DNA of 64,000 nucleotides, from positions 8,184,001 to 8,248,000 of the forward strand of contig NZ_CP023699.1 of the NCBI RefSeq assembly GCF_008704495.1, in the 5' to 3' direction. Within the stretch, counting starts at the first letter, position 1. The number at the start of each line of letters is the position of its first letter. The position numbers and the translations under genes are program-made. The stretch is from Streptomyces kanamyceticus. Lineage in GTDB: Bacteria > Actinomycetota > Actinomycetes > Streptomycetales > Streptomycetaceae. Below are positions 51,016 through 55,626 of the stretch, in pieces. The notes beneath the pieces were generated by a model. That model saw only the letters and a list, made by a program, of their open reading frames with translations. It made no database searches and had not been told where the DNA came from.

Positions 51016-51663
51016 ATGAAGATCCAGGCTGACGCGCTCCTGTTCGACAACGACGGCACCCTCATCTCCTCGATGGAGTCGGTGTACCGCTGCTGGACGC
51101 GCTGGGCGGGGGAGTACGGGATCACCGCGGAGGACTTCGGGCGGGTCGAACTGCACGGCCGACCCGCCGCCGAGATCGCCGCCGACCTGCTGCCCCCGGA
51201 GAAGATCGTCGAGGCCGTCGCCCGCATCGAGGAGCTCGAAGTCTCCGACGTCGCGGGCGGTGTCGTGCTGCTGCCCGGCACCCGGGAGCTCCTCGAATCC
51301 CTGCCCGTGGACCGCTGGGCCGTCGTCACCTCGGCGACCCGGGTGCTCGCCGAGGCCCGCCTCGCCGAGGTCGGCGTCAGGCCCGGCCTCGTCATCGCCG
51401 CCGACGACATCACGCGCGGCAAGCCCGACCCGGAGCCCTTCCTGCTCGCGGCCGCCAAGCTGGGTGTGGACCCGGCCCGCTGCGTGGTCTTCGAGGACGC
51501 CCCCGCGGGTCTCCAGGCGGGCCGGGCCGCGGGCATGAAGACCGTGGCGTTGACCACAACCCACACCGCCGCCGAGCTCTCCGCCGACGTCGTCGTCACG
51601 GACCTCTCCGCCGTGTCCGCGCAGGCCACAGCGGGTGGCGTGGAGATCACCTGCGCCGAGTGA
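51016..51663 (+). CDS. HAD-superfamily phosphatase
   Basis: A 215-residue phosphatase of the beta-phosphoglucomutase/sugar-phosphatase (2-deoxyglucose-6-phosphatase) subgroup. Motif I is LLFDNDGTLISS (Asp nucleophile), motif II VVTSAT, motif III lysine in TRGKPDPEPFLLAA and motif IV VVFEDAPAGLQAG. ATG 51016 has TAGGGT (51002-51007) 8 nt upstream and only a weak GGGAG site, so a leaderless or near-leaderless mRNA is likely. The stop is followed by an inverted repeat (51697-51719) that belongs to the met region or serves as its terminator. Confidence 0.9.
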   Translation: MKIQADALLFDNDGTLISSMESVYRCWTRWAGEYGITAEDFGRVELHGRPAAEIAADLLPPEKIVEAVARIEELEVSDVAGGVVLLPGTRELLESLPVDRWAVVTSATRVLAEARLAEVGVRPGLVIAADDITRGKPDPEPFLLAAAKLGVDPARCVVFEDAPAGLQAGRAAGMKTVALTTTHTAAELSADVVVTDLSAVSAQATAGGVEITCAE

Positions 51664-51696
51664 GCCAGCGGCTCCGTACCGCCGTGACTGTCCCAC

Positions 51697-51719
51697 CGCT
51701 GTCCGCTATACGGACAGCG
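51697..51719. promoter_or_regulatory. Inverted repeat upstream of the met leader
   Basis: CGCTGTCCG-CTATA-CGGACAGCG, perfect 9+9 arms, directly upstream of the predicted -35 of the leader-peptide ORF. Probably an operator (an AT-containing centre is unusual for a Streptomyces terminator), though it could also end the HAD transcript. Confidence 0.5.
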
Positions 51720-51758
51720 ATGGTGGACAGCCACCTCACGCGTGTTTTACTTGGGCCC

Positions 51759-51845
51759 ATGACCACGACGAGCAGCCGCACCCTTGCGACCGAGGCGATG
51801 ATGACGCCCGGTGCTCGTTGTATGTGTCGAATGTGCGCCTTCTGA
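51759..51845 (+). CDS. 28-residue Cys/Met-rich leader peptide of the met ABC operon
   Basis: A short ORF MTTTSSRTLATEAMMTPGAR followed by CMCRMCAF, ending 229 nt before metN. The last eight residues contain three Cys and two Met, the two sulfur amino acids. A GTGGAC -35 (51723-51728), 17-bp spacer and TTTACT -10 (51746-51751) put transcription start at the ATG, so it would be leaderless, as in Cys-rich uORFs of mycobacteria. It resembles the annotated class of Streptomyces putative leader peptides. Ribosome stalling at the Cys/Met run could control downstream met genes; the mechanism is inferred. Confidence 0.7.
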   Translation: MTTTSSRTLATEAMMTPGARCMCRMCAF

Positions 51846-52074
51846 GGGCCCCCGCACCACCCCCGAGCCTCGCGCCCCGAAGCGAAGCCGCCGCGCCGCG
51901 CTCCTGACCGACGTACTCGACGAAGTCGACAAGTCGACGCAGGAAGCGAGCCCGCCCCGCGCACACGTCCTCCGGTTCCACCGCCCCACCACCGCGAGAA
52001 CCGTGCCGCGTTCCGAACGAATGCCCCGTGCCCGGCTTCATCCCGCCGCGCACTCGACAGTGACGGAAACCCCT

Positions 52075-53127
52075 GTGATCACCACTTCCGGCCTCACCAA
52101 GGTCTACCGCTCACGCGGTCGTGAAGTAACCGCCCTCGACGGAGTCGACCTGCACGTCCGCGAGGGCGAGGTGTACGGCGTCATCGGCCAGTCCGGCGCC
52201 GGCAAATCCTCCCTGATCCGCTGCGTCAACCTCCTTGAGCGCCCCACCTCCGGCACCGTGACCGTCGCGGGCCAGGACCTCACCGCCCTGGCCGGACGCG
52301 GCCCGCGCGCGGGCAGGGAACTGCGGCAGGCCCGCAACCGCATCGGCATGGTCTTCCAGCACTTCAACCTGCTGTCCTCGCGGACCGTGCAGGGCAACAT
52401 CGAGCTGCCCCTGGAGATCCTCGGCCTCTCCGGCCAGGAGCGCTCCCGCAAGGCCCTCGAACTCCTCGACCTGGTCGGCCTCTCCGACAAGGCCAAGAGC
52501 TACCCGAGTCAGCTCTCCGGCGGCCAGAAGCAGCGCGTCGGCATCGCCCGCGCCCTGGCCGGTGACCCGAAGGTGCTGCTCTCGGACGAGGCGACCAGCG
52601 CGCTCGACCCCGAGACCACCCGCTCCATCCTCCAGCTCCTGCGCGACCTCAACCAGCAGCTCGGCCTGACCGTCCTGCTGATCACGCACGAGATGGACGT
52701 CGTCAAGAGCGTCTGCGACTCCGCCGCCCTCATGGAGCGCGGGCGGATCATCGAGTCCGGCACCGTCAGCGAGCTGCTCGCGACGCCGGGATCCGAGCTC
52801 GCCGCCGCGCTCTTCCCCGTCAGCGGCGAGGCCACGGGCGCCGACCGCACCGTCGTCGACGTGACCTTCCACGGCGAGGCCGCCACCCAGCCGGTCATCT
52901 CCCAGCTGTCGCGCACCTACAACATCGACATCTCGATCCTCGGCGCCGCGATGGACACCGTCGCGGGCAAGCAGGTCGGCCGCATGCGCATCGAACTGCC
53001 CGGCCGCTTCGAGGAGAACGTCGTCCCGATCGGCTTCCTGCGGGAGCAGGGCCTTCAGGTCGACATCGCGGGACATGACGTGCCTGCCCCGCAGGACGCC
53101 ACGCTGGTCAAGGAAGGTGCCAAGTGA
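52075..53127 (+). CDS. metN: Methionine ABC transporter ATPase
   Basis: Energises D/L-methionine import at the cytoplasmic membrane. 350 residues: Walker A GQSGAGKSS, Q-loop FQHFNLLSS, signature LSGGQKQRVGIARAL, Walker B VLLSDEATSALDPE, switch His LLITHEMDVV; the C-terminal ~90 residues are the NIL domain (VDVTFHGEAATQPVISQLSR) that binds methionine and inhibits transport when methionine is plentiful. GTG 52075 (MITTSGLTKVYRS) is chosen from family N-termini; GTG 52060 and ATG 52021 are alternatives with no better ribosome site. Confidence 0.95.
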   Translation: MITTSGLTKVYRSRGREVTALDGVDLHVREGEVYGVIGQSGAGKSSLIRCVNLLERPTSGTVTVAGQDLTALAGRGPRAGRELRQARNRIGMVFQHFNLLSSRTVQGNIELPLEILGLSGQERSRKALELLDLVGLSDKAKSYPSQLSGGQKQRVGIARALAGDPKVLLSDEATSALDPETTRSILQLLRDLNQQLGLTVLLITHEMDVVKSVCDSAALMERGRIIESGTVSELLATPGSELAAALFPVSGEATGADRTVVDVTFHGEAATQPVISQLSRTYNIDISILGAAMDTVAGKQVGRMRIELPGRFEENVVPIGFLREQGLQVDIAGHDVPAPQDATLVKEGAK

Positions 53128-53870
53128 CCTGGTCGGAGATGCAGCCCCTGCTGGAGCAGGCGTGTTGGGACACCCTCTACATGGTGGGCTGGGCGACGCT
53201 GATAGCCATCGTCGCCGGACTGCCCATCGGCATCCTGCTCATCCTCACCGAGCGCGGCGGACTCCTGCAGAACACCCTGCTCAACAAGGTGCTCGGGCAG
53301 ATCGTGAACATCGCGCGCTCGATGCCCTTCATCATCTTGATGGTCGCCCTGATGGGCTTCACGCGCTGGATCGTCGGCACCACGATCGGCCGCGAGGCCG
53401 CCCTCGTGCCGCTCGCCATCGGCGCCATCCCGTTCTTCGCGCGCCTGGTGGAGACCTCGGTCCGCGAGGTCGACGGCGGACTCGTCGAGGCCGTGCAGTC
53501 CATGGGCGGCTCCACCTGGACCGTCGTACGCAAGGTCCTCGTCCCCGAGTCGCTGCCCTCGCTGATCTCCGGCGCCACCACCACGATCGTCGCCCTCATC
53601 GGCTACTCCGCGATGGCGGGCACCGTCGGCGGCGGCGGCCTCGGCGACCTCGCGCTGCGCTACGGCTACCAGCGCTTCGAGACCGAGCTGATGTGGATCA
53701 CCGTGGCGATCCTCGCCGTGGTCATCTCGATCATCCAGTTCGTGGGCGACTACGCCGCCCGCAGGCTGCACAAGCGCGGCGGCGGCTCCGGCCCGCTGCT
53801 GCTTTTCCGGCCGCTGCGCGGCGTGCTGCCCGGCACCGTCGCCGCCGAGACGACCAGCAAGACCGGCTGA
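53124..53870 (+). CDS. metI: Methionine ABC transporter permease
   Basis: Membrane channel subunit. 248 residues with five to six helices (WATLIAIVAGLPIGILLIL, VPLAIGAIPFFARLVETSV, ITVAILAVVISIIQFVG) and the EAA loop GGLVEAVQSMGGSTWTVVR that docks onto MetN. GTG 53124 overlaps the metN stop (GTGA). The C-terminal ~30 residues (HKRGGGSGPLLLFRPLRGVL) are an Arg/Gly-rich cytoplasmic tail. Confidence 0.95.
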   Translation: MTWSEMQPLLEQACWDTLYMVGWATLIAIVAGLPIGILLILTERGGLLQNTLLNKVLGQIVNIARSMPFIILMVALMGFTRWIVGTTIGREAALVPLAIGAIPFFARLVETSVREVDGGLVEAVQSMGGSTWTVVRKVLVPESLPSLISGATTTIVALIGYSAMAGTVGGGGLGDLALRYGYQRFETELMWITVAILAVVISIIQFVGDYAARRLHKRGGGSGPLLLFRPLRGVLPGTVAAETTSKTG

Positions 53871-53953: not shown

Positions 53954-54793
53954 GTGCGTAACACCGCCAAGATCACCACCGCTGTCCTCGCCACCGGCGC
54001 CCTCACCCTCGGGCTCTCCGCCTGCGGCTCCGACAAGGACTCCGCAGGCGACAAGGACGGCAAGCTCATCGTCGCCGCCACCCCGATGCCGCAGGGCGAG
54101 ATCCTGGACTACGTCCAGAAGAACCTCGCCAAGAAGGCCGGACTCGACCTCGAGGTCAAGGAGTTCACCGACTACGTCACGCCGAACACCGCTGTTCAGC
54201 AGGGCGAGGTCTTCGCGAACTACTTCCAGCACAAGCCGTACCTGGACGACTTCAACAAGAAGAACGGCACGGACATCGTGCCCGTCCCCGGGGCCACGGT
54301 TCACCTGGAGCCGCTCGGCGTCTACTCCAAGAGCCTCAAGAAGCTCGGTGACCTGAAGGACGGCGCCACCGTCGCCGTCCCGAACGACACCACGAACGAG
54401 GCCCGCGCGCTCAAGCTCCTCGCGGACAACGGCCTCATCGAGCTCAAGAAGGGCGTCGGCTACGAGGCCACCCCCAAGGACATCGCCAAGAACCCCAAGA
54501 ACCTCACGTTCAAGGAGCTCGAGGCCCCCACGCTGCCGCGCAGCCTGGGTGACGTCGACGCCGCGGTGATCAACGGCAACTACGCGCTCGAGGCCAAGCC
54601 CGCCCTCAGCCCCGCCAAGGACGCCCTCGTCGCCGAGAAGGCCAAGGGCAACCCCTACGGCAACTTCCTCGCCGTCAAGAAGGGCGACGAGAACGACCCG
54701 CGCGTGAAGAAGCTCGCCAAGCTCCTCACCTCGCCCGAGGTCAAGAAGTTCATCGACGACAAGTACGACGGCGCCGTCGTCGCCGCGTTCTGA
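53954..54793 (+). CDS. metQ: Methionine-binding lipoprotein 1
   Basis: Substrate-binding protein of the NlpA/MetQ family, anchored outside the membrane. 279 residues; lipobox LGLSACGSDKD gives lipidation at ~Cys24. Family motifs: VAATPMPQGEILDYV, LEVKEFTDYVTPNTAVQQGE, FANYFQHKPYLDDF, VAVPNDTTNEARALKLL, and DVDAAVINGNYAL. GTG 53954 has GGAGAAAGG upstream; the 83-bp gap from metI lacks a promoter. Followed 2 bp later by a second metQ. Confidence 0.95.
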   Translation: MRNTAKITTAVLATGALTLGLSACGSDKDSAGDKDGKLIVAATPMPQGEILDYVQKNLAKKAGLDLEVKEFTDYVTPNTAVQQGEVFANYFQHKPYLDDFNKKNGTDIVPVPGATVHLEPLGVYSKSLKKLGDLKDGATVAVPNDTTNEARALKLLADNGLIELKKGVGYEATPKDIAKNPKNLTFKELEAPTLPRSLGDVDAAVINGNYALEAKPALSPAKDALVAEKAKGNPYGNFLAVKKGDENDPRVKKLAKLLTSPEVKKFIDDKYDGAVVAAF

Positions 54794-54795
54794 TC

Positions 54796-55626
54796 ATGCG
54801 TACGTCCGTCATAGCGGCTGCCGCGGGGACCCTGGCCCTCGCGCTCGGCCTCACCGCCTGCGGCGCGGGCTCCGACAGCGGCTCGGGAGGTTCCGGCGAC
54901 AAGCTCGTCGTCGGAGCCACCCCGACCCCGGCCGGTGAAGTCCTCGCGTACGTCCAGAAGAACCTCGCGAAGAAGGCGGGCCTCGACCTCCAGATCACGG
55001 AGTTCACGGACTACGTCACGCCGAACACCGCGCTCCAGGAAGGCTCCCTGGACGCCAACCTCTACCAGCACACCCCGTACCTGACGGACTTCAACAAGTC
55101 CAAGAAGACGGACCTGGTGCCGGTCACCGAGGTGTACCTGCCGCCGATGGGCGTGTACGCGAAGAAGACCAAGGACGTCGCCGACCTCCCGGCGGGCGCG
55201 ACCGTGGGCGTTCCCAGCGACACGACCAACGAGGGCCGGGCACTCCAACTGCTCGCCGCCAAGGGCGTCATCGGGCTCAAGAAGGGCGTCGGCGGCACCG
55301 CGACGCCCGAGGACATCACGTCCAACCCGAAGAAGCTCACGGTCAAGCCGATCGACCCGGCACAGCTGCCGCGCTCGCTCGACGACCTCGACGCGGCGGT
55401 CATCAACAACAACTACGCGCTCGACGCCGGACTCAGCCCCAAGAAGGACGCGATCCTCCTGGAGTCCGCGAAGGGCAATCCCTACAACAACATCCTCGCC
55501 GCCAAGAAGGGCGACGAGGACGACCCGCGGATCAAGAAGCTGGCGAAACTGCTGACGTCGCCCGAGGTGAAGAAGTTCATCGAGGACACGTACAAGGGGT
55601 CCGTGCTGCCCGTCGCGGCGGGCTGA
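54796..55626 (+). CDS. metQ: Methionine-binding lipoprotein 2 (tandem paralogue)
   Basis: A second MetQ, 276 residues, lipobox LGLTACGAGSD, with the same motifs: VGATPTPAGEVLAYVQKNL, ITEFTDYVTPNTALQEGS, ANLYQHTPYLTDF, VGVPSDTTNEGRALQLL, DLDAAVINNNYAL and KLAKLLTSPEVKKFI. It is clearly a tandem duplicate of the first metQ but differs at many ligand-lining positions (for example PVTEVYLPPMGVYAKK versus PVPGATVHLEPLGVYSKS), so it may prefer another ligand such as D-Met, Met-sulfoxide or a dipeptide. ATG 54796 starts 2 bp after the preceding stop. Confidence 0.93.
   Translation: MRTSVIAAAAGTLALALGLTACGAGSDSGSGGSGDKLVVGATPTPAGEVLAYVQKNLAKKAGLDLQITEFTDYVTPNTALQEGSLDANLYQHTPYLTDFNKSKKTDLVPVTEVYLPPMGVYAKKTKDVADLPAGATVGVPSDTTNEGRALQLLAAKGVIGLKKGVGGTATPEDITSNPKKLTVKPIDPAQLPRSLDDLDAAVINNNYALDAGLSPKKDAILLESAKGNPYNNILAAKKGDEDDPRIKKLAKLLTSPEVKKFIEDTYKGSVLPVAAG

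Follow-up and report, generated by a model that had tools for sequence, protein, structure and literature searches.

What is an ORF of only 28 codons doing in front of a methionine importer, and why does it end in alternating cysteines and methionines? The question arises from a locus of Streptomyces kanamyceticus lying within a 64,000-nucleotide stretch of DNA, here called the window. The ORF occupies positions 51759–51845 on the + strand and encodes MTTTSSRTLATEAMMTPGARCMCRMCAF followed by a stop codon. Its final eight residues, CMCRMCAF, include 3 Cys and 2 Met, just as a preliminary description of the DNA had claimed. With codon frequencies taken from six window genes (14 Cys and 20 Met among 1807 codons), the probability of at least 3 Cys together with 2 Met is 3e-8 for one given eight-codon stretch, a figure that carries no correction for the number of short ORFs. 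The same description had placed a methionine importer 229 nt further on, and the genes agree with this claim. The leader stop is followed after 229 nt by the GTG of metN (52075–53127), which encodes an ATP-binding subunit with a NIL domain (TIGR02314, 5e-114, below the curated cut-off). Next come a permease in the metI position (53124–53870; PF00528, 4e-19) and two metQ-like lipoprotein genes (53954–54793 and 54796–55626; PF03180, 5e-93 and 8e-94), all on the + strand. Because the second MetQ-like gene directly follows the first, this is an operon with two substrate-binding proteins (metNIQQ). Judged by MetN, the nearest named relatives are Streptomyces.

The element itself is already known from a single species. 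In Streptomyces lividans TK24, a leader named metL (SLIV_29928), with the sequence MSTTSDRTPATEATTTPGARCMCRRMCAF, precedes metNIQ and has a leaderless transcription start, and its termination is described as unclear (PMC8079986, Table 4). The leader studied here is the orthologue of metL; metL is the same gene, and MSTTSDRTPATEATTTPGARCMCRRMCAF is identical in loci L023 and L137. The leader metL was called a methionine attenuator in that publication, the text of which names methionines and threonines, not cysteine (PMC8079986). No discussion of Cys in a metL-type leader was found among open-licence PubMed Central main texts, taken without supplements. The published account concerns one species (PMC8079986), whereas the present analysis covers conservation across the family and the control codons; what is added is the family-wide core, the cysteine side and an upstream palindrome.

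Conservation was followed first within the genus and then beyond it. The region 51700–52100 is matched in 142 of 150 genus genomes, and 137 of the 142 (own genome counted) were taken as loci. The leader was read in 151 of 152 loci, the exception being L213, which stops short of metN. In these 151 loci the leader was chosen by similarity to the window leader. For the rest of the family, 63 of 70 other-genus genomes with a close MetN were covered, and 23 of 121 genomes, those without a close MetN, were left out. A Cys/Met tract precedes metN in all 63 loci, which represent 14 other genera, and 62 of them have a recognisable start; every one has a terminal Arg-Met core as well as Cys and Met within the last 13 residues. 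L294 retains the tract before metN with an unrecognisable −10 and start, and its leader is perhaps decaying or rearranged. The combined set of 220 comprises loci and not independent genomes (L215 and L266 come from one genome, and named records may repeat species), and counts for 69 added loci within it are biased upward, as the ORF in them was chosen with a bonus for Cys/Met and for the −10. The set omits L236–L258, own-genus loci with the leader present, and the out-of-family loci L048, L087, L099 and L267–L279. The element extends beyond one family, since Actinomadura rubrisoli (L046) has a leaderless-type leader, MTAARSCLAHRSLTQRAGRMCCRRMCDR, before metN, with 373 nt from leader stop to metN. 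Elsewhere outside the family, no leader was accepted in 13 loci from a class search or in three further named records, with partial Cys/Met ORFs in some of them (L268, L270, L271 and L277). One of these, in L268 from another family, is an ORF encoding MTPQGRVMCRGTRMCGTARMCAMGGMPSMR about 175–270 nt upstream of metN, with repeated Met-Cys and without a leaderless −10; it may possibly be an independent Met/Cys leader. The class-wide profile search was positive in 26 of 296 genomes, 23 of them of the own genus and three weak ones elsewhere (E 0.002–0.007). Absence in this search means little, because it missed five own-genus genomes in which the leader was read directly. Against the own genome, the leader profile found a single good match (E 4.7e-10) with a runner-up at E 0.23, so the profile search yielded no convincing leader paralogue.

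Whether ribosomes would read this ORF can be judged from the way its length changes. Measured from the ATG to the last CGN-ATG, the distance is a multiple of three in 219 of 219 loci, and ten different values occur; the 220th locus, L210, has no CGN-ATG core and no internal Met and carries four Cys. On a rough tree built from 190 nt of metN, this distance changed at least 42 times with zero frame breaks, whereas the length of the spacer between leader and metN changed 184 times, with 107 phase changes and no frame preference. The loci chosen by similarity alone give the same picture, with the core in frame in 150 of 150 (n = 151) and seven lengths. Because the distance to the core keeps frame while the spacer ignores it, translation of the leader ORF is supported. 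In a scan for Cys/Met ORFs, a score of at least 10 was reached by 216 of 220 upstream regions read forward, by 6 of 220 of their reverse complements and by 24 of 400 tiles of the window, a result that taken alone is suggestive and not decisive. A second frame, open from 51811 into metN, was considered and rejected as coding, since spacer indels disregard frame.

The end of the ORF is where conservation concentrates on particular residues and codons. Comparison among relatives upheld the mixed composition to which the preliminary description had drawn attention: within the last 13 residues of 176 distinct leader DNAs, Cys makes up 22.5% and Met 15.1%, with Cys present in 176 of 176 (five with a single Cys) and Met in 175 of 176. 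The presumed control tract, Cys-Met-Cys-Arg-Met-Cys (TGT ATG TGT CGA ATG TGC), lies at 51819–51836 (+). Within it lies a near-fixed core, CGA-ATG, at 51828–51833 (+); in 215 of 219 loci the last Arg-Met has its Arg encoded by CGA, and three codons separate the core Met from the stop in 202 of 219. After the core comes Cys in 174 loci, Arg in 43 and His in 2 (n = 219 loci). Of the 117 Arg codons in the six window genes, just 1 is CGA. Cysteine in the leaders is written TGT 364 times and TGC 209 times, and the corresponding numbers in the six window genes are 1 and 13. Rare codons at control sites suit attenuators. The tract also lengthens in frame by Met-Cys units, as in CMCRMCRMCAF, CMCRLMCRMCAF and RRMCRMCHMCRMCA. 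Another Met pair, at codons 14–15, is placed outside the conserved tract because it sits at a variable alignment position.

The locus presents some of the features by which amino-acid attenuators are known, namely a translated short ORF, a matching operon downstream and relevant control codons near the stop. We consider it probable that metNIQQ is under ribosome-mediated attenuation by this leaderless leader peptide, which would read the supply of Cys and Met, and attenuation is the best reading that we infer from the evidence. Transcription would start at the leader ATG, as published for the S. lividans orthologue (PMC8079986) and as expected here from the position of the −10, and ribosomes, to judge from frame conservation, would translate the ORF. 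When Cys-tRNA or Met-tRNA is scarce, a ribosome should stall in the Cys-Met-Cys-Arg-Met-Cys tract, probably aided by the rare TGT and CGA codons. The stalled ribosome would cover leader bases for which computation predicts a pairing partner immediately ahead of the metN ribosome-binding site; that site would then open and the importer would be made. With an ample supply of both amino acids, the ribosome would leave, the RNA refold and metN translation fall. Counted against attenuation are the replacement of the last Cys by Arg in 43 of 219 loci, the want of a recognisable −10 or start in L294, weak covariation in the proposed pairing and a result from S. coelicolor ilvB, where expression control survived mutation of the candidate control codons unaffected (as cited in PMC1262725).

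Several known systems resemble this arrangement in part. The mycobacterial poly-Cys attenuators likewise have a leaderless short ORF with Cys codons near its stop ahead of sulfur genes, and in them a stalled ribosome is said to free the ribosome-binding site (PMC13236596, PMC9031893, PMC4633059). They differ in having runs of Cys and cysteine genes, as described in these sources, whereas this leader alternates Met with Cys and stands before genes for methionine import. The window leader has no contiguous run of Cys codons, its Cys alternating with Met and Arg, and CC occurs in some relatives. In Rhodobacterales, uORFC-8-2 before cysS is also a short ORF with conserved Cys codons ahead of a sulfur amino-acid gene, but it has tandem Cys only and an intrinsic terminator and belongs to a different phylum (PMC8632094). 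The LEU element upstream of leuA in Actinobacteria, unlike this leader, combines Leu codons with a conserved pseudoknot, and for methionine operons the same study found no conserved upstream RNA structure (PMC1262725).

We tentatively suggest that one leader reads both Cys-tRNA and Met-tRNA, a single switch integrating the two sulfur amino acids across Streptomycetaceae with a near-fixed CGA-AUG before its stop. If dual sensing is true, a 28-codon ORF gauges both sulfur amino acids at the ribosome with no protein sensor, and methionine uptake is tied to cysteine supply. It may quite possibly be the case instead that only one amino acid is sensed (methionine, as published for S. lividans, or cysteine) and that the other is merely carried along by the Arg-Met-Cys repeat or by constraints on the RNA. 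Methionine alone would fit the downstream genes, which import methionine, and the contrast between CGA-ATG, which persists in 215 of 219 loci, and the codon after it, which has become Arg in 43. Cysteine alone would fit L210, with its four Cys and no internal Met, and the presence of Cys in every distinct leader. Set against sensing of a single amino acid, both residues are kept almost everywhere and the units by which the tract grows carry both; this conservation argues for adding cysteine to the published methionine reading of metL.

No intrinsic terminator was found in a scan ahead of metN, and because none precedes the first gene, this is not a classical transcription attenuator. Close to metN, a near-invariant block, GCGCACUCGACA, at 52048–52059 (+) is complementary to leader positions 51825–51830 and 51833–51838, and is followed by the conserved, probable metN ribosome-binding site GACGGAA at 52062–52068 (+). 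Since the spacing to the GTG shifts by 1–2 nt, the conserved DNA ahead of it is non-coding, which makes 52075 the likely start of metN. Pairing between the tract and 52048–52059 scores 9.63 of 12 in the genus set against 9.47 with swapped partners, with 3.5% of permutations as high, and 8.33 of 12 against 7.97 in other genera, with 0 of 2000 as high; the permutations ignore relatedness, six of the 220 loci were unplaced and the genus set includes Kitasatospora L043 and L044. Mismatches in the genus set are mostly uncompensated C-A. In genus g14 the number of pairs is only about 7 at many loci. The pairing is possible, not proven. Folding with a 30-nt footprint on the tract was also modelled in 89 leaders with distinct last nine residues (here the genus set includes L043, L044 and Actinomadura L046). 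The predicted openness of the metN site changed by +0.068 in 48 genus-set leaders and +0.025 in 41 other-genus leaders, compared with −0.001 and −0.011 for footprints in other windows. The effect exceeded +0.05 in 24 of 48 and 12 of 41 leaders and fell below −0.05 in 2 and 5; for the leader of this locus it was +0.150, above all 7 other blocked windows. These models suggest, with modest support, that stalling on the tract would make the metN ribosome-binding site accessible, which would most likely be the output of the switch.

A different output for the same sensor is unlikely, though less so than the explanations that follow. When amino acids are plentiful, the ribosome would leave, Rho would load on the C-rich spacer and transcription would end before metN, whereas a stalled ribosome would block Rho or alter the fold. 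The transcribed spacer (51846–52074, +) is indeed C-rich and G-poor, its excess of C over G ranking at the 99.7th percentile among 229-nt windows of both strands, and the missing intrinsic terminator, the unclear termination of S. lividans metL (PMC8079986) and the proposal of Rho for mycobacterial Cys leaders (PMC1262725) all lean the same way. However, C-richness is unspecific, and it is at the metN ribosome-binding site, not in mid-spacer, that the near-invariant block is found.

An arrest peptide or slow-codon brake, in which sequence or a ligand would halt the ribosome at CGA-AUG close to the stop regardless of tRNA charging, is improbable. Such a mechanism would account for the constancy of CGA-ATG, its place three codons before the stop in most loci and the rarity of CGA in the six window genes. 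It is at odds with the variation of the residues that flank the core and with a tract whose length varies in frame. In-frame length variation is unusual for arrest peptides.

The leader might also be a structured, riboswitch-like RNA in which the ORF is incidental. A three-way junction is predicted within the ORF (51761–51828, +), with pairing across 172 sequences, together with a short hairpin, P4, past the stop codon (51870–51885, +), whose outer pair 51870/51885 is U-A in 148 of 172 and C-G in 9 of 172. In junction and P4 combined, 96.3% of cells are paired compared with 22–43% for slid partners, and 47 cells are compensatory compared with 8–23, in a model derived from the window's own fold, which is a bias in its favour. 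Chief among the compensatory changes is a switch from G-C to A-U at 51772/51814, seen in 19 sequences but perhaps reflecting few events. At codon 9, where eleven residues occur, 134 of 170 have T as the third base. On the other hand, indels are in frame only, the tract is kept where the 5′ half has diverged, and stability is ordinary (window z −1.18 vs codon shuffles; −3.07 to +1.55 over 35 leaders, 4 of them under −2). An Rfam search with E up to 1 gave a snoRNA as its sole match, at 18.1 bits vs a gathering score of 45. With no Rfam family at gathering score, the preliminary report of no SAM riboswitch signature is also confirmed. With no Rfam match and an unexceptional fold, a riboswitch was rejected, and the structured-RNA explanation is very improbable. 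A chance ORF, finally, is so improbable as to be dismissed, for conservation of frame and codons over a family rules it out even where open frames are abundant in high-GC DNA and 24 of 400 window tiles reach the scan score.

The preliminary description had proposed a −35 GTGGAC, a −10 TTTACT and a leaderless start. The −10 TTTACT (51746–51751, +) ends 7 nt before the ATG, giving an expected transcription start at 51759, and the GTGGAC (51723–51728, +) is present 17 nt from it. Across 150 aligned sequences the −10 is kept and the −35 is not, so that the −10 and the spacing stand and the quoted −35 does not stand as a conserved element. TTTACT or a near variant lies 6–7 nt upstream of the ATG in 218 of 220 loci, a count in which the −10 gave a bonus in ORF choice for 69 loci. 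A strict sigma-70 scan of 51600–52200 returned zero promoters. The leaderless start fits both the −10 position here and the transcription-start evidence published for the S. lividans orthologue (PMC8079986).

A better candidate for promoter control than the quoted −35, judged from sequence, is a palindrome, CTGTCCGCTATACGGACAG, at 51699–51717, a candidate IclR-type (NdgR-like) operator with a conserved GTCCG-N5-CGGAC core; it may add promoter control to attenuation. With at most one mismatch, this core occurs in 148 of 157 genus-set loci (a set that includes Kitasatospora L043 and L044 and Actinomadura L046) and 35 of 63 other-genus loci, compared with a background of 9 of 711 90-nt window tiles. 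The start of the palindrome tends to fall in one of two zones, −56 to −58 or −65 to −68, separated by roughly a helical turn. Among the motifs recovered by ChIP for NdgR in S. coelicolor is GTCCGCCATGCGGAC, whose placement in the table leads us to regard it as the leuB site; leuB belongs to the regulon, and metN is absent from the regulon genes as listed there (PMC4340878). The 15-bp GTCC...GGAC palindrome here is two bases off an NdgR ChIP motif, and NdgR is a candidate only for the regulator acting at it. Under oxidative stress, S. coelicolor metNIQ rises with cysteine genes as part of an HbpS-SenS-SenR-dependent set (PMC4991794), which is compatible with a sulfur link and is no test of the leader. 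A SenR site is predicted 31 nt upstream of SCO1559 in the same source (PMC4991794); such a site was rejected as a general part of the element, CCGTGCCGCGY being present in just 32 of 220 spacers. In the own genome, the searched palindrome pattern has a sole other perfect match, found 39 nt upstream of an isopropylmalate-dehydrogenase gene (L218). A copy with one mismatch occurs in L226, about 40 nt upstream of an amino-acid permease gene.
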